The translations under genes and the position numbers were made by a program. This document shows, one piece after another, positions 1-19,085 of a DNA stretch of 64,000 nt; the stretch's first letter is position 1, and every line of letters begins with the position of its first letter. The stretch lies in NCBI RefSeq assembly GCF_900103265.1, contig NZ_FMWX01000001.1, positions 558,001 to 622,000 of the forward strand, in the 5' to 3' direction. This DNA is from Sphingomonas sp. NFR15. GTDB lineage: Bacteria; Pseudomonadota; Alphaproteobacteria; Sphingomonadales; Sphingomonadaceae. The notes below the pieces were generated by a model. It was given only the letters and a program-made list of their open reading frames with translations, was not told the origin of the DNA and did no database searches.

Positions 1-124
1 ACGCATGATCGCCCGGCTGGAGGCGCTGTCGCGCTCGCTCGCGCAGGAGGATCTCGACAGTTTCGCCGACAACCTGCGCTTCATCGAGAATCGCTACGGC
101 AAGGGCGACGATCCGCTGCGATAG
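1..124 (+). CDS. 3' end of an unidentified gene (partial)
   Basis: An open frame enters from the left edge and stops with TAG at 122-124. It encodes about 40 residues, ending in FIENRYGKGDDPLR. The tail is charged and probably helical, and its codons are G/C-ending like those of neighbouring genes, so it is likely a real C-terminus. The family cannot be named from this much sequence. It converges on the Ter block that ends at 212, with a palindromic repeat between them. Confidence 0.5.
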   Translation, partial: RMIARLEALSRSLAQEDLDSFADNLRFIENRYGKGDDPLR

Positions 125-139
125 CGAGGTCTTCCCTGA

Positions 140-202
140 CCGTTCGTGTCGAGCGAAGTCGAGACACCTGCACTGTCCCTCGACTTCGCTCGGGACGAAC
201 GG
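140..202. repeat. Intergenic palindromic repeat, family A, copy 1
   Basis: A near-perfect inverted repeat: CCGTTCGT at 140-147 pairs with ACGAACGG at 195-202, and CGAGCGAAGTCGAG at 149-162 pairs with CTCGACTTCGCTCG at 179-192, around a loop of about 16 bases. It lies between two convergent genes and could fold in RNA from either strand. There is no T-run, so any role in 3'-end formation is inferred. Four related copies occur elsewhere in the window. Confidence 0.85.
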
Positions 203-211
203 ATGCGGGAA

Positions 212-1000
212 TTACCCCAGCCGCATCGTCGGCGTCAGCCACACCGTCCCGCGCCCACGGAACAGATACACCAGCCCCTCGCCGCTGCGCCACGCGTTGC
301 GCAGACCCCGCACGAGCGGACGCAGCTCGACCTGCAAGCCCGCCGAATACATCAGCATCAGGTCGCCATCGACGATCAGCTCCTTCTGGCCGTCGAGTTC
401 GACCACCTCGATCTCGTCCGCCGGCACCGGCGACTCGACGACGAACGCGCCCGCGCCGGTCAGCTTGGGCTGCATCAGGCCATTGCCCGACAGGATGCCC
501 TGCACCGAGCGGTGGATATGGGTCGACAGCGCGACATTGGCGTCGCAGGCGTAGAACGCGCCGTCGTCGAGGATCAGCGCATCCTGCGGGCCGTCCATCG
601 CGGCGAGGATGAAGTGCTTGGTGGTCACCTCGGTCCACACCTCGCCATAGCCGGCATAGCGGGTCGCGAACGCGCTCTCGCCCGATCCGGCCGAGGTGAT
701 CGCGCGCGAGAGGAAGCCGCCCGCGCCGGCGTTCTTCTGGATATCGACCTGCAGCTTGCCATGCGCATATTGCAGCGCGCCCGGCTCCAGCAGCGCCGCG
801 CCGCCCTCCAGCACGATGCGGACCTGCCGCGCCGTCGCCGCGTGGGGCGGGTGCAGATGGATCACCGGCGCGGTGCCGCTGCTCGCCGATGCGGCGGGCA
901 GCGGCATGTGGAGCGCATGGCTCTTGCGCTCGAACTGATAGACTTCGAAGCGCACGCCGGCGCTGGCCTGCTCGTCGATGCGGGTACGAAAATCGCTCAT
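212..1000 (-). CDS. AIM24/TIGR00266 family protein, last gene of the Ter block
   Basis: A 262-residue protein of the AIM24 (DUF124) beta-fold family, often found with Ter stress genes. It has the Gly-rich repeating beta pattern of the family, for example a GGFLSRAITSAGSGES segment near the middle followed by a GYGEVWTEV strand. There are no membrane segments or signal peptide, so it is probably cytoplasmic. The ATG at 1000 has AGGAG about 8 bases upstream and overlaps the stop of the lyase gene as ATGA, which indicates translational coupling. Biochemical function is unknown. Homologues have been linked to membrane association and stress, so a membrane-surface role in the Ter response is possible but inferred. 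Confidence 0.85.
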   Translation of the reverse strand: MSDFRTRIDEQASAGVRFEVYQFERKSHALHMPLPAASASSGTAPVIHLHPPHAATARQVRIVLEGGAALLEPGALQYAHGKLQVDIQKNAGAGGFLSRAITSAGSGESAFATRYAGYGEVWTEVTTKHFILAAMDGPQDALILDDGAFYACDANVALSTHIHRSVQGILSGNGLMQPKLTGAGAFVVESPVPADEIEVVELDGQKELIVDGDLMLMYSAGLQVELRPLVRGLRNAWRSGEGLVYLFRGRGTVWLTPTMRLG

Positions 1001-1938
1001 TGGTCGGCTCCTGTGATGAGGCGCAGCGCGGGCTGCGGGTCGGCGATTCCGTAAAGCGCCGCGCGTTCGAGCAGCCGTTCGGCCCAGGCGCGGTGCGTTG
1101 CCGGCTCGCACATCGCGCCGTCATGCGCGAACACGGCCGGCGCGTCGTCGGCGAGCATCAGCCGCGCCTCCTCGATTTGCGCGGTCGGCACCGCGAGCGC
1201 GGCGTGGATCACCGCGATCTGATCGGGATGGATCGCGGTCTTGCCCTGCAACCCGTGCTCGATGTCGCGCGCAACCTCCTCGCGCAGCAGCGCAACATCG
1301 GCGAACCGCTCGAACACCGGCGCGCTGAGCGCGAAGCCCCACGGCGCGAAGCTCGCGACGAGGCTGGCGATGATCCCGCCGAGCGGCCCGTCATAGGCGG
1401 TGCGCCCCGCCGGGCGGCGCAAGCCCATCGCGCGCAGCAGATCGTTGCCGCCGATCCGGAGCGCGACGATGCGATCCTGCACCACCAGCAACTGGTCGCG
1501 CAGGCGCCGCATTTCGTGCGGGTCGCACGCTTCGCGCGTCTCCAGCGTCGGCATCAGCCGGTGCCGGTCATGAAACGGCAGCGCGAGATAGGCCGGCATG
1601 GTGTCCGCATGCGCCTTGGGGATGACGAAGCCGGTCAGCCGCTCGACCCCCGGCATGCACAGCACATGCTCGAGCATCGCCGCGTCGCGCGGGCGCACGA
1701 ACAGCAGCGGCTCGCCCGGCCCCGCGCCGCGCGCCGACAGCGTGCGCAGGAACGCCGCGAGATGCGCCAGCGCCAACGGCACGTCGCGATCGAGCACCGC
1801 ATCCTCGAGGCACAGCACCGCCGATCGCAGCCCGGCGATCCGGCGACCGCCAAGCAGTGCCTCGGCGAGATCGTCGCGCGTACACGGCATGTACAGCGTC
1901 GCGCCGAGCGCGAGCGCGGGAAGCGGGTCGAGGGTCAT
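997..1938 (-). CDS. HpcH/HpaI aldolase / citrate lyase beta (CitE)-like protein
   Basis: 313 residues of the PEP/pyruvate-type TIM-barrel C-C lyase superfamily. Visible family features are a Leu-Glu-Asp segment near residues 44-46 (LCLEDAV), a substrate-binding LFVRPRD strand, a RIGGNDLL segment and GKTAIHPDQI near residues 228-238, which matches the CitE 'KxxIHP' signature. Family members cleave or form C-C bonds of acyl-CoA or 2-oxo acid substrates with Mg2+. The substrate here is unknown. CitE-like genes of this subtype occur beside TerD, PRTase and HAD genes and are thought to make a small metabolite. The start ATG at 1938 overlaps the preceding stop (ATGA), as does its own stop with the AIM24 gene. 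Confidence 0.85.
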   Translation of the reverse strand: MTLDPLPALALGATLYMPCTRDDLAEALLGGRRIAGLRSAVLCLEDAVLDRDVPLALAHLAAFLRTLSARGAGPGEPLLFVRPRDAAMLEHVLCMPGVERLTGFVIPKAHADTMPAYLALPFHDRHRLMPTLETREACDPHEMRRLRDQLLVVQDRIVALRIGGNDLLRAMGLRRPAGRTAYDGPLGGIIASLVASFAPWGFALSAPVFERFADVALLREEVARDIEHGLQGKTAIHPDQIAVIHAALAVPTAQIEEARLMLADDAPAVFAHDGAMCEPATHRAWAERLLERAALYGIADPQPALRLITGADQ

Positions 1939-3026
1939 GCATCGTGTCCCAAAGTGCGGATGATCGCCACCGCGCGGTAGCGCGAGCGCTCACCGAGCGG
2001 CTCGACCGGAATCTCATGTTCGGCGGCGAGATGGAGCAGATGCGCGACATCGGCGTCACCCGGATCGCGCACCAGCAGGCGCTCGGGCATGCGCCTGAGC
2101 AACGCGCGCGTCGCCTCGGCGATGCCGGGTTTGATCCGGTTGCGGTCGCGCGTGCCCGCATGCGCGAGCAGCGCCGCCATCATCGCCTCGCACCCCGCGC
2201 GCAGCGCCGGTCGGCGATCGGCGTGGTCCGCGATCGGCCGGGGCGCGGCGGCGGCGGCGAGCGGCGCGATGCCATCGACGAAGGCGCGCGACAGATCGGC
2301 GTGGGCGAACTGCGGATAGGTGACGCAGGCGTGGAAATCCTCCGGCCCGACCACGTCGGCGTTGAGGATCGAGCGGCTCACCAGCCCCGAGACGATGCCG
2401 TTGAGCAGCCCCGACGCGATCAGATAATCGTCGTCGGTCGCGGCGAGGTCGGCCTGCCCCGCCGGATCGGCGATCACCGCGAGTTCGGGCGCGAAGCCGA
2501 ACGGGCGCTCGGCGAGCGCGGCGCGGAGTTCCCCCGCGATCGCGCCCTTGCCGGTCCAGCCGTCGACGAACACCGCATCACGCGGATCATGGCGTGCCGC
2601 GATATGAGCGAGCGCGTTCCGGTCGATGCCGCGATCGCGGATGATGCTGACGGAATAATGGCTCGCTCGGTGCCCCCAGGCGCGCAGCGTCCGCGCGAGC
2701 AGCACCCCGATCGGCGTGCCCGCGCGCGCCAGCGACACGATCACCACCTCGCGCCCCGGCCGCCGCTCCGCGAGATGCGCGGCGAGGCTCGCGACATCCT
2801 GCGCCAACCGCGCGCCGTTGCGCGCCAGCGCGGCGTGGTACAGCGCGAGATAGTCGGCGCCCGGCACGCTCTCCGGCGCGATCATCTCCGAATAATGCCG
2901 CCGGCCCGATTGGATCGCCGCTTCCTTCGCCGCGACATCGGTCGCAGGCATTGCCACCGGCTTGAGCAGGAAGGTGACGTCGGCGGGATCGTAGCTGCCG
3001 GAGAACGGCGCGGCTTCAGCCGACAT
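1935..3026 (-). CDS. StiP/PRTase_1 family protein with C-terminal PELOTA-like domain
   Basis: 363 residues. The N-terminal two thirds match the ter-associated phosphoribosyltransferase-like family (also named 'cysteine protease StiP family' in databases): GRRHYSE at 41-47, SLARAGTP at 98-105 and the PRPP-loop-like VFVDGWTGKG at 152-161. Roughly the last 90 residues, rich in Arg and ending in YRAVAIIRTLG, fit the PELOTA-type RNA-binding fold attached to this family. The inferred role is transfer of a phosphoribosyl or related group during synthesis of a nucleoside-like compound; no reaction has been shown from sequence. Its 5' end overlaps the HAD gene by 11 bases and its 3' end overlaps the lyase gene. 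Confidence 0.8.
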   Translation of the reverse strand: MSAEAAPFSGSYDPADVTFLLKPVAMPATDVAAKEAAIQSGRRHYSEMIAPESVPGADYLALYHAALARNGARLAQDVASLAAHLAERRPGREVVIVSLARAGTPIGVLLARTLRAWGHRASHYSVSIIRDRGIDRNALAHIAARHDPRDAVFVDGWTGKGAIAGELRAALAERPFGFAPELAVIADPAGQADLAATDDDYLIASGLLNGIVSGLVSRSILNADVVGPEDFHACVTYPQFAHADLSRAFVDGIAPLAAAAAPRPIADHADRRPALRAGCEAMMAALLAHAGTRDRNRIKPGIAEATRALLRRMPERLLVRDPGDADVAHLLHLAAEHEIPVEPLGERSRYRAVAIIRTLGHDA

Positions 3027-3765
3027 CGAACAGGCCCCCCGCGAGTTGCGAGCGCGGCGGCATCATCGCGAAGTCGCACAGCGCCATGAACGGCGCATCG
3101 GTATGGCTGTCGCCCACGCCGATCACCGGCGCGTCGGGGAAGCGCGCGCGCAGCGCCGGCAGGATATGCGCAACGGCATGCGCCTTGCCGAGATAGGGCG
3201 GCATCAGCGCGACATTGTTGCCGTTGCGATGGTCGGTCCAGCCATCGGGCAACGCGGGGATCGCGGCATCGACCACCGCGAACAGCGCCTCGGCATCGGC
3301 ATCGGCGTGCTTGGCGAGCGTGTAGAGCGGCAGATCGCCCTCGTTCAGCACGCGCGCGTTGATCGCGACGCCGCGCGCGCGCGCCTCGGTGGCGATCGCG
3401 TCGGCGAACACGGCCAGCGTCTCGGCATGGGGGGCGGCGCGCAGGGCAATGATCTCAGCCCAGCCCGAATCGATCGCGCCGGTATCGTCGAGGATCACCC
3501 CGCCATGCGCACACACCGCCGCGCGGAACGGAATGTGCGCCCGCCTGAGCGCATCGAGGCTGCGCGCGGTGACGGGCACGAGATGCGTCGTCTCGGCGAG
3601 CCATTCGAGGAACCGCATCTGGCGCGGCGTCGCATAGCTCAGCGGCGCGCCGTCCTTGGCGAAGCCGAGCGGGGTCAGCCGCTCGACCGGCACGTCGGGC
3701 GGGCATTTTCGGAGTGTCTGGAACAATGTGTCGTCGAGATCGACGAGCGCGATCGCGCGGATCAT
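3016..3765 (-). CDS. HAD-superfamily hydrolase of the Ter biosynthetic module
   Basis: 249 residues with the full HAD signature: motif I DLDDTL at residues 9-14 (nucleophile Asp9, acid Asp11), motif II Thr66 in VPVTARS, Lys194 in YLGKAHAV and motif IV GVGDSHTDAPFM with Asp219 and Asp223. The large insertion between motifs II and III suggests a C2-type (Cof-like) cap. It probably removes a phosphate from a phosphosugar or nucleotide intermediate made by the neighbouring PRTase-like proteins. The start ATG overlaps the upstream PRTase/TRSP stop by four bases. Conservation of all catalytic residues argues for an active enzyme. Confidence 0.88.
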   Translation of the reverse strand: MIRAIALVDLDDTLFQTLRKCPPDVPVERLTPLGFAKDGAPLSYATPRQMRFLEWLAETTHLVPVTARSLDALRRAHIPFRAAVCAHGGVILDDTGAIDSGWAEIIALRAAPHAETLAVFADAIATEARARGVAINARVLNEGDLPLYTLAKHADADAEALFAVVDAAIPALPDGWTDHRNGNNVALMPPYLGKAHAVAHILPALRARFPDAPVIGVGDSHTDAPFMALCDFAMMPPRSQLAGGLFDVG

Positions 3766-4865
3766 GCCGACCAGCCGATCGGCGTGGCATCGAGCGCGGC
3801 GATCAGCGCCGGATCGAGCGTGTCCGCGCCGGTTTCGTGCGCGATCAGCGTCATGCGGCCGTCCGCCGGATCGGCGTTGTAGAGGTAATTGGGCACGCCG
3901 GTTCCATAATTGTCGGAGAAGCGGAGCTTGCTGGCCATCGCCAGCCCGATCCGCGCCGGGCTGCGGCTGGTCGCCTGCACGACCACGTCATGCCCTTCGC
4001 CCGCGAGACGTTCGGCAAGACGGAACGGCAGATAGGTGAACTCGCCGGTGCCGAGCACGCGCACCGGCCCGGTGATCTCGGGCACGGCGCTAACCGGCGG
4101 CGGCGCCACCGGCGCGGCGATGCCCAGCCGCCCGAAGTTACGATGCGACCGCATCCGCCCCAGCGACGCCGCCGCCCGATCGAACCCCGCGTCCGCCGCC
4201 ACGTCGGCGCCCTGCGTCCACGCCAGCCGCCCGCCGAGCAGCGCCGCCACCGCGGTCGGTCGCGGCATCCGCGCTCGCCAGTCGCGTCCGCGCGACCAGT
4301 CGGTCAGCGTCGCCACCACGATCTCCTCGACACGCGGCCATGCCGCCACCAGCGCCTCGGCGAGGTTGCACAAGGTCGTGCCGGTCGAAATCTCGTCATC
4401 GACGATCACCAGGCTGCGCGGCTCGGGCAGGTCGGGGCGGTAGATCAGATGCGCCGAAGCATGGCTGTGCGGCTCCTCGAACCGGCACAGCAACGGATGG
4501 TCGAGCTGCTGTCGCGTCGAATGGAGGAAAAACACATCGTCGCGCCCGGTCGCCGCACGCAGTTCCTCATGCACCGTCTGGCCGAGGCACACGGCGGTCT
4601 CGGCGAGGCCAATCACCATCACCGGCCCCGGCAGATCGGCCGGGATGCGCGCCGCCAGATCGCGCGCGCTCTCGCGGATCAGGTGCGGCGGCGTCGGCAG
4701 ATGCCGCCCGAGCACGCGCGACACGACGAGGAAGCCGCGCCTGGGGTTCTCGCGCGCGGCGAACGCGCACAGCCGGTCGAGCGGCCACGCGGCCTCCTCG
4801 ACCGCGATGTCGAGCCGCCCGGTCGGCAACTCCACCGTGCGCGTCTCTTCGGCGATGCTCAGCAT
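3762..4865 (-). CDS. Phosphoribosyltransferase (PRTase_2) with C-terminal TRSP domain
   Basis: 367 residues. The PRPP-binding loop is clear at 152-164 (LVIVDDEISTGTT). The C-terminal part holds the motif that names the TRSP domain, here T299-S-R-S-P303, together with GTGEFTYLPFRLAE at 272-285 and an SDNYGTG segment near 317. This two-domain arrangement is characteristic of ter-linked operons. The start was placed at the ATG at 4865, not at the upstream in-frame codons, because it begins MLSIAEE and overlaps the protease-fusion stop by only seven bases. The probable role is phosphoribosyl or nucleoside transfer in a specialised metabolite pathway (inferred). Confidence 0.85.
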   Translation of the reverse strand: MLSIAEETRTVELPTGRLDIAVEEAAWPLDRLCAFAARENPRRGFLVVSRVLGRHLPTPPHLIRESARDLAARIPADLPGPVMVIGLAETAVCLGQTVHEELRAATGRDDVFFLHSTRQQLDHPLLCRFEEPHSHASAHLIYRPDLPEPRSLVIVDDEISTGTTLCNLAEALVAAWPRVEEIVVATLTDWSRGRDWRARMPRPTAVAALLGGRLAWTQGADVAADAGFDRAAASLGRMRSHRNFGRLGIAAPVAPPPVSAVPEITGPVRVLGTGEFTYLPFRLAERLAGEGHDVVVQATSRSPARIGLAMASKLRFSDNYGTGVPNYLYNADPADGRMTLIAHETGADTLDPALIAALDATPIGWSA

Positions 4866-6013
4866 TCGCACGTCACCCGCGCGATCATGTCGCGCGCCTG
4901 GCGCACGACGGCGGCGCGGCCGATCACGGCATTGCCGTGCGCCATCTGCGGCTCGATGCCGAACGAATCGAGGAAACTGAGGATCATCGCGCCCTTGATG
5001 CCGAAATTGATATTCTCCGCGCTCGCCCCGGTCTGGCGCACGCGGTCGAGATTGAGCGAGGAACATACCAGCCCGATCAGATGCCCCGCCATGTCGAGAA
5101 TCGGACCGCCGCTGTTGCCGCTCGCGATCGGCGCGGTGAATTGGAACAGGCTGCTGTCGTTGCCGATCCCGGTCAGCGCCGCGATGTTGCCCGCGCTCGC
5201 CTGCGGCCCGGTGCCGAGCAGCCCCTGCAACGGAAACCCCAAAGCGACGACATCCTCGCCGAGATGCAGCCCCACTTCGGAGCGGAACTGCGCGATCCCC
5301 GCGACCGGCGCCTCGACCCGCAGCAGCGCGAGATCGTTGCGGCGGTCGGCGAACACCGTGTCGGCGGCGAGCGGCCGCCCGCCCGCCTGCACCGTCACCA
5401 CCCGCGCATCCTCGACGACATGCGCGTTGGTCAGGATATGGTGGCGCTCGACCGCGACACCGCTCCCGCTCGACGTGCCCGCGCGCGGGCCGCGCTCGCC
5501 ATCCGGCGCATCCGGCGGCTGCAAGCGCGGGATCAGCCGCATCACCCAGTCATGATCGATCCCATAGGCCGCCGCGATCGCGCTCAGCCCCATCGCGAAG
5601 CCCTGGCCGTTGGCGGCGATCCGCCACCCGCCTTGGTGCCGATAGCATTCTATCAGGATGACGGCGGCATCGGGCCGTGCGCGCAGATCGGCCGCGAAGC
5701 GCATGTCGCCCAGGTCGAGCGTGACCACCCGCTCGATCGGCCGATTGCCGCGATCGAAAGCGATCAGAAGCAGCCGCTCGACCGCGCCCGGCATCTCGTC
5801 GAGCGCGACGCGCAGCCGCGTGGCGCCCTCGAACCGCGCGGCGGGGCGCATCTCCCGCGTCACCGCGTCGATCGGCGCGAAGACCGGCGACACGCGCCGA
5901 TCCGCCCCTAGCGCGATCAGCGCCAGCGTCGGCGGGTCGCCGCCATCCCCGGCGAGCGCGAACACGCCCGCGCCGGAGATGGCGGCCCGTTCGCCCGCGA
6001 CCAGATCACGCAT
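4859..6013 (-). CDS. TerD-domain protein fused to a trypsin-like serine protease
   Basis: 384 residues in two parts. Residues about 1-155 form a divergent TerD beta-sandwich ending in the family's C-terminal signature (CYRHQGGWRIAANGQGF, then GL). Residues about 178-350 are an S1/HtrA-like protease with an apparently complete triad: His198 in ILTNAHVV, Asp227 in RRNDLALL and Ser301 in GNSGGPI. No signal peptide or PDZ domain is evident, so the protease seems cytoplasmic. Its position between two ordinary terD genes and the PRTase/HAD genes suggests it links metal or stress sensing to proteolysis. The target is unknown. The N-terminal acidic Ca2+-binding residues typical of TerD look degenerate here. 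Confidence 0.85.
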   Translation of the reverse strand: MRDLVAGERAAISGAGVFALAGDGGDPPTLALIALGADRRVSPVFAPIDAVTREMRPAARFEGATRLRVALDEMPGAVERLLLIAFDRGNRPIERVVTLDLGDMRFAADLRARPDAAVILIECYRHQGGWRIAANGQGFAMGLSAIAAAYGIDHDWVMRLIPRLQPPDAPDGERGPRAGTSSGSGVAVERHHILTNAHVVEDARVVTVQAGGRPLAADTVFADRRNDLALLRVEAPVAGIAQFRSEVGLHLGEDVVALGFPLQGLLGTGPQASAGNIAALTGIGNDSSLFQFTAPIASGNSGGPILDMAGHLIGLVCSSLNLDRVRQTGASAENINFGIKGAMILSFLDSFGIEPQMAHGNAVIGRAAVVRQARDMIARVTCEC

Positions 6014-6034
6014 CGGCGGGCGATGTCCTGCGGG

Positions 6035-6610
6035 TCAGACGTTGACGCCGAACGACCGCGCGAGCGGCCCGAGCCCGCCGGCGAAGCCCTGCCCGATCGC
6101 CTTGAACTTCCACTCGCCATTGTTGCGGTAGAGATCGCCGAAGATCATCGCCGTCTCGGTCGATGCGTCTTCGGACAGGTCGTAGCGCGCGATCTCGGTG
6201 CCGCCGTCATTGTTGACGACGCGGATGTAGGCGTTCGAGACCATGCCGAAATTCTGGCGCCGCGCGTCGGCGTCGTGGATCGTCACCGCGAAGCTGAGTT
6301 TCTGGATCTCGGCGGGCACCTGATCGAGCGTCACCACCACGACCTCGTCGTCGCCGCTGCCCTCGCCGGTCTGGTTGTCGCCCTGGTGGACGACCGCGCC
6401 GTTGGCACCGTTCTTGTTGTTGTAGAACACGAAATCCGCGTCCGAACGGACCTTCCCGCTCTCGCTCAGCAGGAAGACGCTGGCATCGAGATCGAACCCG
6501 GCGCCGTCGGTCACGCGCGTATCCCAGCCGAGGCCGACGCGCACGACCTTGAGGCCGGGCGCCTCCTTGCTGAGGCTGACGTTGCCGCCCTTCGAAAGTG
6601 AAACTGCCAT
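6035..6610 (-). CDS. terD: TerD family protein
   Basis: 191 residues, the usual TerD length. It shows both acidic Ca2+-binding motifs, [10 protein letters not shown] (Asp40/Asp42) and [13 protein letters not shown] at 77-89, and the C-terminal [16 protein letters not shown] pattern. TerD proteins are soluble beta-sandwich proteins that bind Ca2+ and work with TerC in resistance to tellurite, oxidants, phage or DNA damage. The ATG at 6610 has AGGAG about 7 bases upstream; an in-frame TTG at 6616 is less likely. It is very similar to the preceding gene, pointing to tandem duplication. Confidence 0.93.
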
Positions 6611-6634
6611 ATCCAACTCCTTGTCCGGCCGATA

Positions 6635-7213
6635 TCAGCCGATGTTGACGCCATAATTGCGCGCGAGCGGGGCGAGGCCGCCCTTGAAGCCCTGCCCGAC
6701 CGCGCGGAACTTCCATTCGCCGTTGTTGCGATAGACTTCGCCGAAGATCATCGCCGTCTCCGTCGAGGCATCCTCGGCGAGGTCATAACGCGAGATCTCG
6801 CGGCCCGTCGCATCGTTTACGATGCGGATGAACGCGTTGGAGACCATGCCGAAGCTCTGGCGGCGCGCCTCGGCCTCGTGAATGGTCACGGTGATCGCGA
6901 TCTTCTGCACGTCGGCGGGCACGCGGGTCAGCTCGACCTTGAGCGCTTCGTCATCGCCATCGCCTTCGCCGGTGCGGTTGTCGCCGGTGTGCTCGACCGA
7001 TCCGTCGCCTGAGCGCAGATTGTTGTAGAAGATGAAATCGCTGTCGCTGCGCACCTTGTCGCCCGCCGCGAGCAGAAAGGCACTCGCGTCGAGGTCGAAG
7101 TCGGCGCCGTCCGACGTGCGGGTGTCCCAGCCGAGCCCGATCAGGATCTTGCTGAGGTTGGGTTCCTCCTTCGACAGACTGACATTGCCGCCTTTGGTGA
7201 GGCTAACCGACAT
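6635..7213 (-). CDS. terD: TerD family protein (second paralogue)
   Basis: 192 residues, collinear and highly similar to the next gene downstream. [11 protein letters not shown] near 39-49, a [13 protein letters not shown] metal-binding loop and [16 protein letters not shown] at the C-terminus are all intact. It probably binds Ca2+ and acts at the inner face of the membrane with the TerC-like protein encoded 15 bases upstream. The ATG at 7213 is preceded by AGGAG. Two near-identical copies in a row may allow hetero-oligomers or higher dosage (inferred). Confidence 0.93.
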
Positions 7214-7228
7214 GGTGGTGTCTCCTGC

Positions 7229-8347
7229 TTACGAGTTGTTGAGCCGCTCGCCGGTGGCCACGATCGCGTCGTCATCGTCGTCACCCTTGGCGCGCAGCGA
7301 CGCGACGAAGGCGAGGCCGATCAGCCCCGCGCCGATCAGCCCGGTCACCGTCTCGGGGATTTCGAAGCGCACCGACAGCAGCATGATCGTGGCGAGCGCG
7401 ACGATCGCGTAGAACGCGCCATGCTCGAGATACCGATATTCGGAGAGCGTGCCGCGATCGACCAGCATCACCGTCATCGACCGCACGAACATCGCGCCGA
7501 TGCCGAGGCCGAGCGCGATGATGAACAGGTTGTTCGACAGCGCGAACGCGCCGATCACGCCGTCGAACGAGAAGGACGCGTCGAGCACTTCGAGGTACAG
7601 GAACGCCGCCAACCCCGATTTCGCCGCCGTCACCGCGACCGCGTGGCCGCCGGCATGCGCCGCGCCGCCCTGCGAATCCTCGTCGCCGTCGGCCTGTTCG
7701 AGCACCGCGCCGATCGCCTGCACGGCGATATAGGCGACCAGCCCGAAGATCCCCGAGGTGATGAAGGTCATCGCCTCCTCGGGTGCGATCAGCCGCGAAA
7801 TGCCGTAGAGCGCGAGGAGCACGATGCCGATCGCCAGCCCCGAGATCCGCGACAGGCCCGCGAACGGGCGCTCGATCACGCCGATCCAGTGCATGTCCTT
7901 GTCTTCGTCGAGGAAGAACGTCAGCCCGACCATCGCGAGGAACGCGCCGCCGAATCCGGAAATGCCGACATGCGCGCCGGTGATGATCCGCTCGTAGGTG
8001 ACCGGATCGGTCGCGGCGAGCTTGAGCGCCTCGATCGGCCCGACCTGCGCGGCGATCGCGACGATCACCAGCGGGAACAGGATTCGCATCCCGAACACCG
8101 CGATGATGATGCCCCAGGACAGGAAGCGGCGGCGCCAGATCGGGTCCATGTCGCGCAGCACGGTCGCGTTGACGACGGCATTGTCGAACGACAGCGAGAC
8201 TTCGAGCACGCCGAGCACCAGCACGATCCACAGGATGCCGAGCGTGCCCGCGACATCATGCGTGATCGTCCAGCCCAGCACCGCGCCGATCGCGAGGCAC
8301 AGCGCGGTGAAGAGCAACGATCCCCTGAAATATTTGAACACCATCAT
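7229..8347 (-). CDS. TerC-like integral membrane protein (DUF475 type)
   Basis: About 372 residues with some nine hydrophobic segments. TerC-superfamily signatures are present twice: membrane-embedded acidic residues in LEVSLSFDNAVVNA (Glu49, Asp55) and again in LEVLDASFSFDGVIGAF in the second half. Members are proposed metal-ion transporters or membrane anchors for TerD proteins. A cytoplasmic Asp-rich tail (KGDDDDDA) precedes the stop. Start candidates are ATG at 8347 or 8344, just after GGGGG, or a TTG at 8374 that would overlap the upstream stop; I chose 8347 because family members begin near FKYFRGS. Confidence 0.88.
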   Translation of the reverse strand: MMVFKYFRGSLLFTALCLAIGAVLGWTITHDVAGTLGILWIVLVLGVLEVSLSFDNAVVNATVLRDMDPIWRRRFLSWGIIIAVFGMRILFPLVIVAIAAQVGPIEALKLAATDPVTYERIITGAHVGISGFGGAFLAMVGLTFFLDEDKDMHWIGVIERPFAGLSRISGLAIGIVLLALYGISRLIAPEEAMTFITSGIFGLVAYIAVQAIGAVLEQADGDEDSQGGAAHAGGHAVAVTAAKSGLAAFLYLEVLDASFSFDGVIGAFALSNNLFIIALGLGIGAMFVRSMTVMLVDRGTLSEYRYLEHGAFYAIVALATIMLLSVRFEIPETVTGLIGAGLIGLAFVASLRAKGDDDDDAIVATGERLNNS

Positions 8348-8370
8348 CCCCCGGTTCGCCGCGTGCGGCC

Positions 8371-9549
8371 TCAATCCTTGCGCCCGGCGACCCAGCGCAG
8401 GCCCCAGCCGAGCGATTCGTCGAACATGCGCGTATCATGGAGATATTCCACGATCCGCGTAACCTTGATTGCACCCGCGTCATTTTCGATCAGCACGATC
8501 CCGCACAGCCTGCGGTCGTCGCGCCCCTCGGTCAGCCGCACTTCGATCGGCGGCTGGTCCGGCATGGTGACGAGCACCACGCCATCGGTCTGCTGCCAGT
8601 TGGGCACGCCCGAATAGATGTTGGCGAACACCGCGACGCGCTTGATCTGCGGCCAGAACGCGCCGTTGATGCGCAGCGTCTCGCCCGCCGAAACGTCGCC
8701 GGTGCGGTCATCGCCCGACAGCGCGATATAGGGCGCGTGATCGAAGGATCCGAACGAGTTGCCGAGCGCCTGCACACCGCCCTTGCGCCCGTCGATGAGC
8801 TCGAAGAGGCAGCCGATGTCGAGATCGATCGCGCTGCCGCCGCCGAACAGCCCCTTGCGCCCACGCGACCAGTTGAGGTTGATCGTGATCTCGCCGAAGC
8901 TCGCGCCGCGCTTGGCGAGGCTTACGGTCTGCCCGCGCTTCTCCAGCGTCACCTTGCTGAGGCTGACCGGCGGCGGAGCGGGCGGGGGCGGAGGAGGAGG
9001 CGGTGTCGCAGCGGCCGGCGGCTCGTCGGCGACGTCGATCCCGAACGACCGCGCGAGCGGCGCAAGCCCGCCGTTGAACCCTTGGCCGACCGCACGGAAC
9101 TTCCATTGCCCATTTCGGCGATACAGTTCGCCGAAGGTCATCGCCGCCTCGCTCGCCCCGGCGAGCTGCGGCCGAAAGCGCAACGCTTCCCCGCCACCAC
9201 GCGGCGCAACGGTGATCTCGGCGCCGTCGAGCCGCGCCAGCGTCTCGCCTCGCGTCTGCGCGTCGGGGAGCGTCACGCAAAACACGATCCGCTCGATCTC
9301 GGCGGGTAGCCGCGCAAGATCGACCTCGAACGCGCCCTGCCCGCGCGACGCATCGAAACGGATGCCGCCGCCATCGCCCTCGGGCTGGTTGTAGAACACC
9401 ATGTCGGCGTCGCCGCGCACCTTGCCGGTCGCGGTCAGCAGATAAGCGGACGCATCGGCGTCCACCCCGCCCGTCGCGCTCCAGGCGAACGTCACGGCCA
9501 GCGCGTCGCCCGGGACGGGCGCATTGCCGCCCTGTTGCAGATCGGTCAT
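8371..9549 (-). CDS. Double TerD-domain protein (TerD-Pro linker-TerA-like)
   Basis: 392 residues. Residues 1-178 are a TerD domain with a partly degenerate first metal motif (VDADASAYLL), but [20 protein letters not shown] is intact. A run of proline and alanine at about 179-198 is a flexible linker. Residues 199-392 are a second TerD-like domain of TerA type, starting SLSKVTLEKRGQTVSL, with SAIDLDIGCLFEL and a GDDRTGDVSAGE loop. TerA proteins normally pair with TerD and TerZ in these operons. The ATG at 9549 follows AGGAG. The stop is 24 bases from the chosen terC-like start. Confidence 0.88.
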   Translation of the reverse strand: MTDLQQGGNAPVPGDALAVTFAWSATGGVDADASAYLLTATGKVRGDADMVFYNQPEGDGGGIRFDASRGQGAFEVDLARLPAEIERIVFCVTLPDAQTRGETLARLDGAEITVAPRGGGEALRFRPQLAGASEAAMTFGELYRRNGQWKFRAVGQGFNGGLAPLARSFGIDVADEPPAAATPPPPPPPPAPPPVSLSKVTLEKRGQTVSLAKRGASFGEITINLNWSRGRKGLFGGGSAIDLDIGCLFELIDGRKGGVQALGNSFGSFDHAPYIALSGDDRTGDVSAGETLRINGAFWPQIKRVAVFANIYSGVPNWQQTDGVVLVTMPDQPPIEVRLTEGRDDRRLCGIVLIENDAGAIKVTRIVEYLHDTRMFDESLGWGLRWVAGRKD

Positions 9550-9593
9550 GCGATCTCCTGTTCGTGTCGGCGAAAGGATGGTGGCGGGCGGCG

Positions 9594-10175
9594 TCAGAGC
9601 ACGCCGCGGATCACACCCATCATATCGTGGAAGGTCCGTCCGGTGGTGCGCTCGCCCAGCGCCTTCATCTCCCAGCCATCGCCCGAGCGCACCAGCTTCG
9701 CCATCACCTGCCCGGTGTGCGGACCCGATCCGCTGAGATCATAGCGCGCCATTTCCTTGCCATTGGTCGAATCCACAACGCGGCAATAGGCGTTTTCGAT
9801 CCGGTCGAAACTTTCGCCGGTGAAGCTGTTGACCGTGAACACCAGCGATCGCACCGTGGCGGGCACCCGCGTGAGATCGACATTGATCGTCTCGTCGTCG
9901 CCGTCCCCGGCGCCGGTGCGGTTGTCGCCGCTATGGACGATGCTGCCGTCCGCGCTGACGAGCTGCCGGAACCACACCTGATCGAGCAGCGCCCCGCCCG
10001 CATCGAACAGCAGGCACGACGCGTCGAGATCGATATCGCCGCCACCGCCGCCGAACAGGCCGAACAGCCCCTTGGACTTGCGCACGTCCCAGCCCACGCC
10101 CATCGCCACCCGCGTCAGCGTGCCGCCGCCCGACTTTTCCAGCTTTACAGTTTGGCCTTTTTGCAGACTGACCAC
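9594..10175 (-). CDS. TerD/TerZ-like protein, first gene of the terD run
   Basis: 193 residues with GWDVRKSKG, a Gly-rich insertion (KGLFGLFGGGGG) typical of TerZ/TerE subtypes, DIDLDASCLLFD and GDNRTGAGDGDDE metal motifs, and a C-terminus that departs from the YRNNGEWKF pattern. The start is GTG at 10175 with GGAGAAG about 7 bases upstream; no in-frame ATG fits. A promoter-like pair at 10223-10250 lies just upstream, so this may be the first cistron of the main Ter transcript. Confidence 0.88.
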   Translation of the reverse strand: MVSLQKGQTVKLEKSGGGTLTRVAMGVGWDVRKSKGLFGLFGGGGGDIDLDASCLLFDAGGALLDQVWFRQLVSADGSIVHSGDNRTGAGDGDDETINVDLTRVPATVRSLVFTVNSFTGESFDRIENAYCRVVDSTNGKEMARYDLSGSGPHTGQVMAKLVRSGDGWEMKALGERTTGRTFHDMMGVIRGVL

Positions 10176-10222
10176 GCTGGCTTCTCCATATTTTCGTTTT
10201 GTAACGTTCTGTATGCCAAGCG

Positions 10223-10250
10223 ATTATGACAGTTGACCTACAAACCACAA
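10223..10250 (-). promoter_or_regulatory. Candidate sigma-70-type promoter for the terZ-onward operon
   Basis: Read on the minus strand, TTGTGG (10245-10250) is followed after 16 bases by CATAAT (10223-10228), a 5/6 match to the -10 consensus. It lies about 50 bases upstream of the TerZ-like GTG, in one of the most A/T-rich stretches of the region. The -35 is poor (3/6), as would suit a regulated promoter. It falls just downstream of the ATP-grasp gene, so that gene could also read into the operon. Confidence 0.4.
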
Positions 10251-10266
10251 GGCCAGCGGTTCCGCC

Positions 10267-11286
10267 TCATCCCCGCGCCGCATCGGTTCGTCGTCGCCGC
10301 TCGGCATGGACCACCGCGACGATTTCGACGTTCACATCGGCGTCGAAGCGCCGCGCGGCGCCGGTCACGACATCGACCCAGGTCGCGCTGAACGGCACGC
10401 CCACCGCGTCGCAATAGGACGCGCCGCCCGCCGCGCGCGTGTTGATTTCGAGGATGCGCCACGCGCCCTCGCGATCCTGCCGGTACTGGACGTTGACCGC
10501 ACCGTGCAGCGCGTAGCGCGCGACCAGACCGACGGCGTGGGCGATCAGCGGATGCCGCGTCTCGATGCGCTGCCGGTTGGCGTCGAGCTTGGTCCGCACC
10601 GCCGCGACCAGCGTGTCGCCACGATCCGCGACGATGTCGACCGATGCCTCCAGCCCCGGCAGATGCTCCATCACCAGCAGCGAGAAGGTCTCGCCGCGCG
10701 CCTCGCCCGCCCGCAACGCGGCGGCATAGACCTCGGGCGCGATCCGCCGCGCATCGGGATCGGCGAGATGCTGGAGCGCGGTCGCCGCATCGAGCGTCCA
10801 ATAGCCGGCGCCGTAAATCCCCGTCGCCGGCTTGACGCAGGCGACCGCACCGCCCCGCGCGATCGCATCCACCGCCGCCTCGAACGCCGCCGCCGTCGTG
10901 ACCGGGATCGTCGGGCACAGCATCGCATCCCCGGCCAGCGCCGCCGAAAACGCCGCCTTGTCGTCGAGCAGCCGCAATGTCGCCGCGTCGGCGGCGACAT
11001 GCAGCGCGATCCCTTCCGCCGCGAACCGGTCGGCCATCCCGGCGACATCCATGCGCCCCCGCTGCGCGACCAGCGCATCGACGCCGCGTTCGATCGCGGT
11101 CGCGAGCAGCCATTCCGGGTAATCGAAGGTGCCGCGTGCCGGCTCGCGCCAGAATTCGGGCGCGACATCGCGCACCGGCGACTCCGGGTCGATCGCGCTG
11201 ACGCACAACGAAATGCCGGGCCGCTCGACGGCGATGCGAGAGACGATGTTGCGGAGCGAAAACGCCTGGTTGAACCACAGCTTCAT
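10267..11286 (-). CDS. ATP-grasp domain protein of the Ter module
   Basis: 339 residues beginning MKLWFNQAFSL. The layout is that of ATP-grasp ligases: an N-terminal pre-ATP-grasp region, a central ATP-binding strand VACVKPATGIYGAGYW (phosphate-contacting loop), a VMEHLPG segment, and the C-terminal metal site ILEINTRAAGGASY with Glu-Ile-Asn. ATP-grasp proteins of this sort accompany TerD/PRTase/HAD genes and probably ligate an amino acid or carboxylate to a metabolite. The ATG at 11286 was chosen over a longer frame running antisense through rplK. It is divergent from rplK across 200 bases. Confidence 0.85.
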   Translation of the reverse strand: MKLWFNQAFSLRNIVSRIAVERPGISLCVSAIDPESPVRDVAPEFWREPARGTFDYPEWLLATAIERGVDALVAQRGRMDVAGMADRFAAEGIALHVAADAATLRLLDDKAAFSAALAGDAMLCPTIPVTTAAAFEAAVDAIARGGAVACVKPATGIYGAGYWTLDAATALQHLADPDARRIAPEVYAAALRAGEARGETFSLLVMEHLPGLEASVDIVADRGDTLVAAVRTKLDANRQRIETRHPLIAHAVGLVARYALHGAVNVQYRQDREGAWRILEINTRAAGGASYCDAVGVPFSATWVDVVTGAARRFDADVNVEIVAVVHAERRRRTDAARG

Positions 11287-11487
11287 AGCTCGGCGGATAT
11301 CGCCCCTCGCCGTCACGTCAACCGCGGCGCGCCGATTGCATCGCCACGCCGCTTGCGCTATGCGCCCGCGCTTCCAGAGCGACAGCAATGGGATTCGTGC
11401 GGGAGGGCGCTGTGACACGCGCCCGCTACCAACCGCTAGACTTGATCGGGGCACGCCACCGTGCGGGCCCGACCGAAAGAGAGTGAC

Positions 11488-11919
11488 ATGGCAAAGAAGA
11501 TTACCGGATACATCAAGCTGCAGGTTCCTGCAGGCAAGGCGAACCCCTCGCCGCCGATCGGCCCGGCGCTGGGTCAGCGCGGCGTGAACATCATGGAGTT
11601 CTGCAAGCAGTTCAACGCCTCGACGGGCGATCAGGAAGTCGGCACCCCGCTGCCGACCATCATCACCGTCTATGCCGACCGCAGCTTCTCGTTCGAGACC
11701 AAGACGCCGCCGGCGACCTATCTCATCAAGAAGGCCGCGAACCTGAAGTCGGGTTCGAAGGAGCCGGGCAAGACCTCGGCGGGCAAGATCGCCCGGTCGA
11801 AGCTGTCGGAAATCGCGCAGGCCAAGATGAAGGATCTGAACGCGAACGACATCGAAGCGGCAACGCGCATCATCGAGGGCTCGGCCCGCGCGATGGGCCT
11901 CGAAGTGGTGGAGGGCTGA
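11488..11919 (+). CDS. rplK: 50S ribosomal protein L11
   Basis: 143 residues, the standard L11 length. It starts [32 protein letters not shown], with the Pro-rich N-terminal domain that binds factors and the C-terminal domain for 23S rRNA GTPase-centre binding. The ATG at 11488 follows a GA-rich Shine-Dalgarno (AAAGAGAG). A weak promoter-like pair, TTGCAT (11336-11341) and TATGCG (11359-11364), lies upstream. The usual neighbours secE and nusG are not directly upstream; the Ter ATP-grasp gene is there instead, on the other strand. Confidence 0.97.
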
Positions 11920-11923
11920 TATC

Positions 11924-12622
11924 ATGGCAAAGCTGACCAAGAAGGCGAAGACCCTCGCCACCGTGATCGACCGCGACAAGCTGTACGGCATCAACGAGGC
12001 GATCGAATTGGCCCGCTCCAACGCGACCTCGAAGTTCGACGAGACGATCGAAGTCGCGCTCAACCTCGGCGTCGATCCGCGTCACGCCGACCAGATGGTG
12101 CGCGGCGTCGTCACGCTGCCCAAGGGCACCGGCAAGACCGTGCGCGTCGGCGTGTTCGCCAAGGGCGCGAAGGCTGAGGAGGCGCTCGCCGCCGGTGCCG
12201 ACGTCGTCGGCGCCGAAGACCTCATGGAAATCGTCCAGGGCGGCAAGATCGACTTCGATCGCTGCATCGCGACCCCGGACATGATGGGCGTCGTCGGCCG
12301 GCTCGGCAAGATCCTGGGTCCGAAGGGCCTGATGCCGAACCCCAAGCTCGGCACCGTCACGATGAACGTCGCGCAGGCGGTCAAGGACGCCAAGGGCGGC
12401 CAGATCGAATATCGCGTCGAGAAGGCCGGCATCATCCACTCGGGCATCGGCAAGGCGTCGTTCCCGGCCGAAGACCTGCGCGCGAACTTCGACGCGCTGG
12501 TCGATGCCGTGGTCAAGGCGAAGCCGGCGGGCGCCAAGGGCAAGTATGTCCGCAAGGTCGCCGTCAGCTCGACGATGGGCGCCGGCATCAAGGTCGACAC
12601 CGCCGAGGTGAGCGCGGCGTAA
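11924..12622 (+). CDS. rplA: 50S ribosomal protein L1
   Basis: 232 residues, usual L1 length, with the conserved [15 protein letters not shown] segment and the C-terminal [10 protein letters not shown]. It binds 23S rRNA at the L1 stalk and in many bacteria represses its own operon. It begins four bases after the rplK stop, with GGAGGGC ahead of the ATG, so the two are co-transcribed. A strong terminator follows 28 bases after the stop. Confidence 0.97.
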
Positions 12623-12678: not shown

Positions 12679-12756
12679 CGTGCGCCCATGATCGAGGTTA
12701 ACCACTTTCCTGATTCATAAGGCTTTTCTTTGAACTTTCACGGGCATGATGCGCGC

Positions 12757-13557
12757 ATGGCCCTTCCCGTGACCCCATCGGCGCCCGCGCCCGCCCCCTG
12801 TGCCGGATGCCGCGACGGCGGCGATCTCGATTTCGCCTTTTCGATGGCGTTCCAGCCGATCGTCGATATCGTCACCGGCACGCCCTTCGCCTACGAAGCG
12901 CTGGTGCGCGGCCCCAACGGACAAGGCGCCGCCAGCGTCCTGTCGCGCGTGTCGGACGCCAACCGCTATGCCTTCGATCAGCAATGCCGCGTGCGCGCCA
13001 TTTCGGTCGCGGCCGCCGCCGGGCTGATCGACACCGGCGCGCGCCTGTCGATCAACTTCCTTCCCAACGCGGTCTATTCGCCCGCCGCGTGCATCCAGTT
13101 GACGCTCAAGACCGCCAGGGCGGTGGCGTTCCCCACCGACCGGCTGATCTTCGAATTCACCGAAAACGAGCGGATGGCCGATCCGGCGCACGTCGCCGAT
13201 ATCATCGCGACCTATCGCAAGATGGGCTTCGGCACCGCGCTCGACGATTTCGGCGCGGGGCATGCCGGGCTCAACCTGCTCGCGCGGTTCCAGCCGGACA
13301 TCATCAAGCTCGACATGGAGCTGATCCGCGGGCTCGACAGCAGCCTGCCGCGCCGGATGATCGTCGATGGCGTCGTCAAGATGTGCGCCGCGCTCGGCAT
13401 CACCGTCATCGCCGAGGGGATCGAGACCGCCGGCGAATTGGCGGCGCTCCGCGCGATGAACGTCCGCTACGTCCAGGGCTATCTGCTCGCCCGGCCCGGC
13501 TTCGAGACGCTGCCGCCGATCGCGTTCGACGTGACCGCGGAGCCGCCGATCGCCTGA
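12757..13557 (+). CDS. EAL-domain cyclic-di-GMP phosphodiesterase
   Basis: 266 residues from the ATG at 12757; a TTG at 12730 would add nine. It is essentially a stand-alone EAL domain with no GGDEF or membrane segment. Catalytic residues are all present: Glu47 in YEALVRG, Asn100 in SINFLPN, Glu133 in FEFTENE, Asp163-Asp164 in DDFGAG, Lys184 in IIKLD, Glu220 in IAEGIE and Gln240 in VQGYL. It should therefore hydrolyse c-di-GMP to pGpG. A CAGC motif near residues 15-18 could be a redox or metal-binding CxxC. It is convergent with the AsmA gene, only four bases apart, and sits between rplA and rplJ. Confidence 0.93.
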   Translation: MALPVTPSAPAPAPCAGCRDGGDLDFAFSMAFQPIVDIVTGTPFAYEALVRGPNGQGAASVLSRVSDANRYAFDQQCRVRAISVAAAAGLIDTGARLSINFLPNAVYSPAACIQLTLKTARAVAFPTDRLIFEFTENERMADPAHVADIIATYRKMGFGTALDDFGAGHAGLNLLARFQPDIIKLDMELIRGLDSSLPRRMIVDGVVKMCAALGITVIAEGIETAGELAALRAMNVRYVQGYLLARPGFETLPPIAFDVTAEPPIA

Positions 13558-18750: not shown

Positions 18751-19085
18751 AATCGCCTCGGTGCGTCGTTCAAGCCCATGCCATACGACCGCGTCATGAT
18801 AAGACAAGCGCCAGACGCGCCGCGCGCGCCGACCCGATCGCGCGGATTGTCGGCCGGATTTGACACGCTCCAACACCGCGCCTATATGGCGTCCTTCACC
18901 ACGACTTTCGGGAAATGACGTGCCCTCGCGCAGCATGTCGATCGGATTGGAGGTTGTGGCCTTACGAGGACGCCGAGAAGCTGCTGTTTTCCGAGTATCG
19001 CGGAGGACATGCGGCTTTTTGCGTCTTTCCGCGTGCCCGCCCGGGCGATCCGGGCACGAAATTTTGACGTGAGGGCTAAAGACAC
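18751..19085. other. 335-base rpoBC promoter and leader region
   Basis: No gene is seen. It contains the rpoB promoter at 18860-18888, a leader of about 190 bases and, at 19032-19058, the hairpin CGTGCCCG/CGGGCACG followed by AAATTTT, which may act as an attenuator-like structure shortly before the rpoB start. Confidence 0.6.
18860..18888 (+). promoter_or_regulatory. Strong sigma-70-type promoter for rpoBC
   Basis: TTGACA at 18860-18865 (perfect -35), exactly 17 bases of spacer, and TATATG at 18883-18888 as -10. It is the best promoter match I found in the window and would make rpoBC independent of rplJL. Confidence 0.8.

Follow-up and report, generated by a model that had tools for sequence, protein, structure and literature searches.

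A Ter-type stress-response cluster of twelve genes (labelled A to L; Table 1) occupies the minus strand of a 64,000-nucleotide stretch of Sphingomonas sp. NFR15 (contig NZ_FMWX01000001.1, positions 558,001 to 622,000; hereafter the window, situated on contig C8 of a 4.40 Mb genome). Judged by its gene content, the chromosomal cluster is of a known kind with an enzyme module, in a variant composition without TerB and with a DUF475-type TerC and a TerD-protease. For the enzyme module, the reading favoured here, to which we give an even chance of being right, is ribosyl transfer by proteins E and C dependent on phosphoribosyl pyrophosphate (PRPP), followed by dephosphorylation by protein D, within the Ter stress cluster. 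This reading is built on the gene identities, the predicted folds, the pairing of E with C, the occurrence of E-D-C without TerD and the family of D. New here are the definition of E-D-C as a putative core, the close pairing of E with C, copies in symbionts that lack TerD, and a link between D and an enzyme of solved structure. They narrow the question to three genes, one with a crystallised homologue deposited under another function; together with natural strains that keep E-D-C without TerD, this makes the product of the Ter module tractable by biochemistry. An earlier note on this DNA, made from the sequence alone, stated that no product is known, which still holds, as passages of two later papers (including PMC8115787) give a predicted nucleoside-like metabolite or nucleotide derivative.

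The pairing of E and C was examined in 398 Pseudomonadota genomes (Gxxx), among which StiP, the family of C, exceeded its cut-off in 12 and PRTase_2, the family of E, in the same 12, with both matches lying within about 2 kb on one contig in all 12. In this distribution, E and C behave as an apparently obligate pair, which is new here. A StiP scan of the species-genome collection yielded 53 loci (L0xx denotes the StiP loci and records compared), and tblastn detected E in 47 of them; in the six loci without an E match, StiP starts at most 732 bases from the locus and contig end on the E side. In R. leguminosarum G155, StiP is present with no PRTase_2 match, and its StiP contig of 3.3 kb ends 0.7 kb upstream of StiP. 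D was detected by tblastn in 44 of the 53 loci, and a looser profile revealed a D-like frame somewhere in 50, regardless of adjacency (not in L054, L055 or L064); B was detected in 48, in 42 of them with a match covering more than 60% of the gene, and 37 loci have the TerC-like I. The window has D, B and L, and D adjoins E-C in 11 of the 12 StiP genomes. In the 11 StiP genomes besides that of the window, D was found beside E-C in at least 10 (not G267), B in at least 7 and L in at least 4, these counts being lower bounds because some contigs are short and similarity to reference gene sets was required. Moreover, 16 of the 53 loci, namely those with AIM24, repeat the gene order K-J-I-H-G-(F)-E-D-C-B-A (two of them, L022 and L025, without I), with A to E proteins 64-94% identical to those of the window, suggesting that the arrangement is more than chance. 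In the genomes of the family, StiP exceeded its cut-off in 3 of 149, and the nearest named relative via StiP was Sphingomonas populi (93%). Of nine sub-threshold StiP matches inspected in sphingomonads, seven carry WRGG and VDDVFDSG-like motifs and are ordinary phosphoribosyltransferases (PRTases), in line with the fold predicted for C; two were inspected in the wrong orientation.

The three genes also occur without TerD. E, D and C frames are open in seven Bradyrhizobium loci (six genomes and the plasmid pUSDA94-1), with F as a short remnant in all seven and B as a short N-terminal remnant in five and not found in two. TerD was detected in none of nine rhizobial genomes and records (the six Bradyrhizobium genomes, one R. 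leguminosarum genome and two single plasmid records), and PRTase_2 was present in all six Bradyrhizobium genomes. Strains differ in the flanks of E-D-C, and on the plasmid transposase genes are found nearby. For L037 and L042, picked as one of the more divergent pairs, E, D and C pooled showed 40 synonymous changes over about 774 sites and 32 nonsynonymous changes over about 2164 sites (site totals approximate, derived from proportions), giving a nonsynonymous/synonymous ratio of about 0.29 (Fisher p 1.8e-7); single-gene ratios of other Bradyrhizobium pairs ranged from 0 to 0.64. On these counts, Bradyrhizobium E-D-C shows the signature of purifying selection among closely related copies (synonymous divergence, dS, at most 0.072). 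Together, these observations suggest that E-D-C is the putative core of the enzyme module, persisting without TerD, which is new here. For L and B, the profiles PF15632 and PF15617 matched in 8 of 8 and 7 of 8 rhizobial genomes and records, respectively, with weak scores throughout (at most 50.5 and 55.9 bits). Six of nine PF15632 frames exceed 1,100 amino acids and were read as carbamoyl-phosphate synthase, a 339-amino-acid frame with 50.5 bits (G151, contig C81) may be a Ter ATP-grasp, and the PF15617 matches comprise full-length low-scoring frames, read as generic CitE-like, and short B remnants; given such weak matches, the absence of B and L in rhizobia is a matter of judgement. The StiP genome G401 also has no TerD match over the cut-off. 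Its E, C and D share 99-100% identity with their counterparts on the Rhizobium symbiont plasmid L077 (NZ_CP013502.1, 102322-131368), so the two cases are not independent. On this plasmid, the trio, in the order E-C-D, lies near type III secretion genes. A tts-box-like pattern with at most 2 mismatches occurs somewhere in 6 of 8 rhizobial loci, in none of them close to E.

The PRPP loop of TRANSFERASES E, VDDEISTGTT, is intact in the two-acid form, and residues D156, D157, E158, S160, T161, G162 and T164 were invariant in 32 sequences. The structural model of E (predicted local distance difference test, pLDDT, 90.5) had adenine phosphoribosyltransferase as its best fold match (Z 12.3, root-mean-square deviation (rmsd) 2.8, 171 residues aligned), and E is adenine-phosphoribosyltransferase-like in its predicted fold. 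The model of C (pLDDT 92.7) can confidently be placed in the fold of type I PRTases, the best 50 of 1517 Foldseek matches all being PRTases. In the fold comparison of C, CriT (8a0c) took the top row (Z 10.6, rmsd 3.8, 189 residues aligned), within 1 Z of many others and tied with PyrR and HGPRT rows, and it was not among the best 50 of the 1517 Foldseek matches. The loop of C reads D-G-W-T-G-K-G, with D155, W157, T158, G159 and G161 in 57 of 57 sequences; as this is not the canonical two-acid loop, C is called PRTase-fold rather than a proven PRTase. The Pfam name of StiP, a cysteine protease, was rejected in view of this fold and because no Cys is invariant in 42 sequences (the best Cys column holds it in 44 of 57). 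On the predicted structure, StiP is therefore reassigned from cysteine protease to a PRTase fold with an L7Ae-like tail, which is new.

In this tail, a KxGxxExT[KR] motif aligned with L7Ae chains (best profile E 0.0045), and K299, G301, E304, R307 and R311 were invariant in 42 sequences. Compared with the RNA-contact positions of L7Ae, the tail keeps E, K/R and R and has A or G in place of N in the forms shown. E and C might ribosylate RNA (tRNA, rRNA or kink-turn RNA) picked by the tail of C, with D trimming the phosphate, so that the module would modify RNA at times of stress and make no diffusible metabolite. PRTase-fold enzymes that glycosylate polymers do exist (PMC10299916, PMC11127046), and, if true, one and the same RNA modification under stress would be common to Ter systems, legume symbionts and a jumbo phage. 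However, the case consists of a fold and a motif, the L7Ae E-value is weak, and an Rfam scan of window positions 1-12500 gave nothing at the gathering score, all of which make RNA ribosylation improbable. The same scan gave one sub-threshold CRISPR-repeat match, inside gene C.

D belongs to the HAD enzymes by its homology, over nearly the whole length, to the PDB entries 6cj0, 6d3v and 6d3w, by its HAD motifs and by weak HAD-IIB profile matches below cut-offs. The entries share Cys85 with D and were deposited as 'trehalose phosphatase', a function different from the one read here. The D protein of the ter cluster on the P. aeruginosa plasmid pR31014-IMP is near-identical to the 6cj0/6d3v chains and annotated as Trehalose-6-phosphatase. 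In 2019, an extra-chromosomal trehalose-6-phosphate phosphatase of P. aeruginosa was reported to be inhibited by N-(phenylthio)phthalimide (apparent Ki 2.1 uM), with Cys85 or Cys231, called specific to P. aeruginosa, as the suspected inhibitor site (PMC6838324). The pR31014 protein has Cys at 85, 231 and 239, and by our own count on the alignment the PDB chains have it at 85 and 231; the Cys85 column holds Cys in 51 of 53 D-family members, the exceptions being Salmonella L074 and Rhizobium L077. Given the matching Cys85/Cys231 and the near-identity, the crystallised, assayed and ter-cluster enzymes are probably one family member, and if the crystallised enzyme is the assayed one, a homologue of D has reported phosphatase activity. 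A 2018 abstract, in contrast, reportedly gives the chromosomal enzyme of P. aeruginosa as the crystallised one.

The name of these entries and the assay of the extra-chromosomal enzyme, probably the same one, would fit a D that is a plain trehalose-6-phosphate phosphatase in a module that makes or regulates a compatible solute. Against this, D gave no Pfam match at E 0.001, its neighbours in the clusters inspected encode PRTases, the plasmid and phage clusters carry no gene annotated as trehalose-phosphate synthase, and otsA and otsB lie elsewhere in the genome, on contig C20, so we regard this explanation as highly improbable. The OtsB profile PF02358 was not matched by D, its sole match in the genome being on contig C20, and a housekeeping role of D as trehalose phosphatase was likewise judged unlikely in view of otsA/otsB. 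From this, D is inferred to act as a sugar-phosphate phosphatase in the ter module, with a natural substrate that is probably a compound other than trehalose-6-phosphate. Among open papers, a text search retrieved none that mentions 'trehalose-6-phosphate phosphatase' together with 'TerD'.

Ribofuranose can be added from PRPP by a PRTase-fold transferase and then a HAD phosphatase, an established route employed by CriT/CrpP of the Haemophilus capsule polymerase Bcs3 and by gPRT/PRP (PMC10299916, PMC11127046). The arrangement of such ribofuranosyltransferase pairs, a PRTase-fold gene beside a HAD phosphatase gene, is present in the window. Based on this CriT-type precedent, the same logic is proposed for E, C and D. 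The known systems differ in having glycan acceptors, and the excerpts available from these papers mention no L7Ae-like tail; CriT spreads its two acids over two loops (PMC10299916), a layout that C may not share. For the window, we infer PRPP use, step order, product, sensing and protease recruitment along the following lines. E and C, as a pair, would move phosphoribose from PRPP onto an acceptor and D would then remove the 5-phosphate, while B (C-C lyase) and L (ATP-grasp) could contribute optional tailoring or precursor steps. K-J-I-H-G-F would form a membrane-linked Ter complex of TerD proteins and a DUF475-type TerC metal transporter, with F as a cytoplasmic HtrA-like protease presumably recruited through its own TerD domain. 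The product would most likely be a ribosylated small molecule, a rating in line with the published nucleoside-like proposal, and the TerD/TerC complex may respond to it, a link already proposed in print for Ter systems.

Several observations weigh against ribosyl transfer by E and C within a Ter complex. Position 156 of C, which should hold the second acid of the PRPP loop, is occupied by Gly in 56 of 57 sequences and by Ser in the remaining one, implying that C could be inactive or a sensor. As a sensor, C would be a non-catalytic PRTase-fold protein binding PRPP or the product of E and D and acting on RNA through its L7Ae-like tail, as PyrR does, and the module would couple a nucleotide signal to RNA control. 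The missing acid, the high rank of PyrR chains in the fold comparison (Z 9.9-10.1, level with other rows) and the invariant tail residues all point in this direction. However, the conservation of the putative active site (S98, R101, G103, R130, D135, D155, T158, G159 and G161, invariant in 42 sequences) seems stronger than a purely sensory role calls for, and we consider a sensory C unlikely, though still to be reckoned with. Furthermore, D was not found beside E-C in G267 and L055, and the closely related loci L022 and L025 keep the cluster while lacking the TerC-like gene between J and H. The occurrence of E-D-C without TerD shows that the enzymes can do without the Ter complex. In E. coli MG1655, terZ-F from Klebsiella suffices by itself for tellurite resistance (PMC8115787), so the Ter and enzyme arms may be independent. 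The cluster could then serve chiefly against metal or envelope stress, through TerC, TerD, the protease and AIM24, with the enzymes as passengers, in keeping with that sufficiency of terZ-F and with the absence of StiP from 31 of the 42 genomes, among the 398, with TerD over cut-off. Conversely, TerD is present in 11 of the 12 StiP genomes, the enzyme genes overlap by 4-11 nt, and the E-D-C frames are open under apparent selection even where TerD is missing; passenger enzymes are thus doubtful, with little probability left to them.

Ter-dependent stress systems with an enzyme module were described by Anantharaman, Iyer and Aravind in 2012 (Mol Biosyst 8:3142; cited via PMC7824862, PMC8115787 and PMC5822837), and the tie to this module drawn in the earlier note was borne out. 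Like the published systems, the window combines TerD and TerC proteins with PRTases and HAD enzymes, and its enzyme set is complete (PRTase_2/TRSP, StiP/PELOTA, C-C lyase, ATP-grasp and HAD). The ATP-grasp and the lyase carry Ter names in Pfam or are known parts of such systems. The window differs in the lack of TerB in the genome, the DUF475-type TerC, the location of all genes on one strand and, probably, a TerD-trypsin gene placed after the ter genes and ahead of the enzymes. Among plasmids, Salmonella IncHI2A NZ_CP047523.1 and P. aeruginosa pR31014-IMP NZ_MF344571.1 both carry L-E-D-C-B together with terZ-A-C-D-E, and pR31014-IMP also has a TerD-trypsin protein upstream of E. Both clusters differ from the window in the presence of TerB and in that AIM24 was matched in neither. 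In the Salmonella plasmid, moreover, the enzyme genes are divergent from the ter genes, and vWA, PP2C and kinase genes are added, whereas the Pseudomonas plasmid cluster (L078) has a second HAD gene (PF12710, 14006-14734) between the lyase and TerD genes that the window lacks. With Salmonella and Pseudomonas plasmid clusters of equal or greater content, the size of the set in the window is unremarkable. In jumbo phage ME3, E-D-C adjoins TerC- and TerD-like genes; this case and AIM24 beside TerD (PMC5822837) are both in print and not new. The StiP gene was found over at least 80% of its length in 2,560 plasmid records. The plasmid record MN956836.1 is fragmented and was left out of the comparisons. 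L082 (IMGVR_UViG_2660238583_000003), a contig classified as viral, has a ter cluster like that of Pseudomonas, TerD-trypsin gene included, and might instead be a plasmid or an integrated element, and the metagenomic viral contig L083 has the enzyme order B-E-C-D-L, near the B-E-C-D of Streptomyces loci.

All twelve open reading frames proposed earlier proved to be open, with zero internal stops, and their identities were likewise confirmed. In a Pfam scan of ten proteins (all but G and H), nine had a match over the curated cut-off, D had none at E <= 0.001 and was identified by PDB homology, and G and H matched TerD in a separate PF02342 search.

Table 1. Genes of the Ter-type cluster and the L-K spacer, in window coordinates
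Feature	Coordinates	Strand	Evidence
L: ATP-grasp of Ter module (ATPgrasp_Ter)	10267-11286	-	PF15632 E 9.1e-27; ATG start, 339 aa
Spacer L-K, 91 nt	10176-10266	-	promoter-like TTGTGG-16-CATAAT by eye; contains GTCATAAT
K: TerD-family, TerZ position	9594-10175	-	PF02342 E 1e-45; both acidic motifs kept
J: TerD domain and C-terminal TerA-like TerD-type domain, TerA position	8371-9549	-	PF02342 E 2.3e-46, residues 4-169
I: TerC-family integral membrane protein, DUF475 type	7229-8347	-	PF04332 E 1e-108; PF03741 E 3.6e-19
H: TerD-family	6635-7213	-	PF02342 292.5 bits
G: TerD-family, TerE position	6035-6610	-	PF02342 283.2 bits
F: degenerate TerD and HtrA-like trypsin domain	4859-6013	-	PF13365 E 1e-25; PF02342 E 2e-7
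E: PRTase_2 and TRSP	3762-4865	-	PF15609 E 1.8e-56; PF12500 E 1.5e-14
D: predicted HAD-IIB-type phosphatase	3016-3765	-	phmmer to PDB 6cj0/6d3v, E 1e-37, residues 3-244
C: StiP, predicted PRTase-fold and PELOTA/L7Ae-like domains	1935-3026	-	PF11202 E 7.6e-98; PF15608 E 2.8e-24
B: CitE-like C-C bond lyase	997-1938	-	PF15617 E 2.3e-88
A: AIM24-domain protein	212-1000	-	PF01987 E 7.8e-35

The genes from K to F are separated by short gaps (K/J 44, J/I 23, I/H 15, H/G 24 and G/F 21 nt), and those from F to A overlap (F/E 7, E/D 4, D/C 11, C/B 4 and B/A 4 nt). These overlaps suggest translational coupling within F-E-D-C-B-A; they suggest coupling only, and the fixed stoichiometry that the earlier note had read from them is unproven. 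Its single twelve-gene operon is likewise unsupported, as L stands 91 nt from K with the promoter-like site, seen by eye, between them, and its position varies, lying between F and G in L018 and directly before F in L051. L and K may each have a promoter of their own, and L may be transcribed separately. The L-K spacer of L021, L022 and L025 also contains GTCATAAT. A consensus promoter scan gave one site in this spacer (10219-10190), elsewhere than the site seen by eye, in a total of 2 sites, close to the shuffle expectation of 1.2. Among 27 sequences from the region upstream of K, the most widespread 7-mer occurred in 10 against a shuffle maximum of 7, which seems due to closely related loci.

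With regard to the Ter arm, PF02342 gave five matches over cut-off in the genome, all inside the cluster. In alignments inspected by eye, the two acid-rich TerD motifs were kept in H, G and K and largely lost in the first domain of J and the TerD domain of F. J is 49% identical to the protein that occupies the TerA position on the plasmid of L074, and I is a TerC-family protein by both of its profile matches. The catalytic triad of F (H198/D227/S301) was present by letter in 14 of 14 aligned sequences, the window included, and an F homologue lies directly upstream of E on the Pseudomonas plasmid, indicating that F is a recurrent partner rather than a local oddity; eight Sphingomonas loci (e.g., L033-L035) had no F match between G and E. 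PADLOC profiles for known anti-phage defence systems, applied to ten of the twelve proteins (without G and H), matched F alone, over its protease domain. As noted earlier, TerB is lacking, with zero PF05099 matches in the genome, and the cluster was therefore not filed as a classical terZABCDE tellurite-resistance operon. Queries from the Salmonella plasmid cluster (TerF, TerC, TerB, DUF4236, TerW, two vWA/TerY, TerY-C, PP2C and kinase) were searched against the window and 10 kb leftward, the TerY search being limited to that region. There, the terF query matched TerD genes only, one TerY query had a weak match outside the cluster (18872-19066; 66 residues, 33%, E = 0.002), and the remaining queries had no match.

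No compositional sign of recent acquisition was seen in the cluster, its GC content being 0.691 versus 0.673 and its third-position GC likewise not distinct. By eye, rplK lies on the plus strand at the right of the cluster, and an EAL-domain-like open reading frame, recognised by eye from its translation, immediately follows rplA at window positions 12730-13557.

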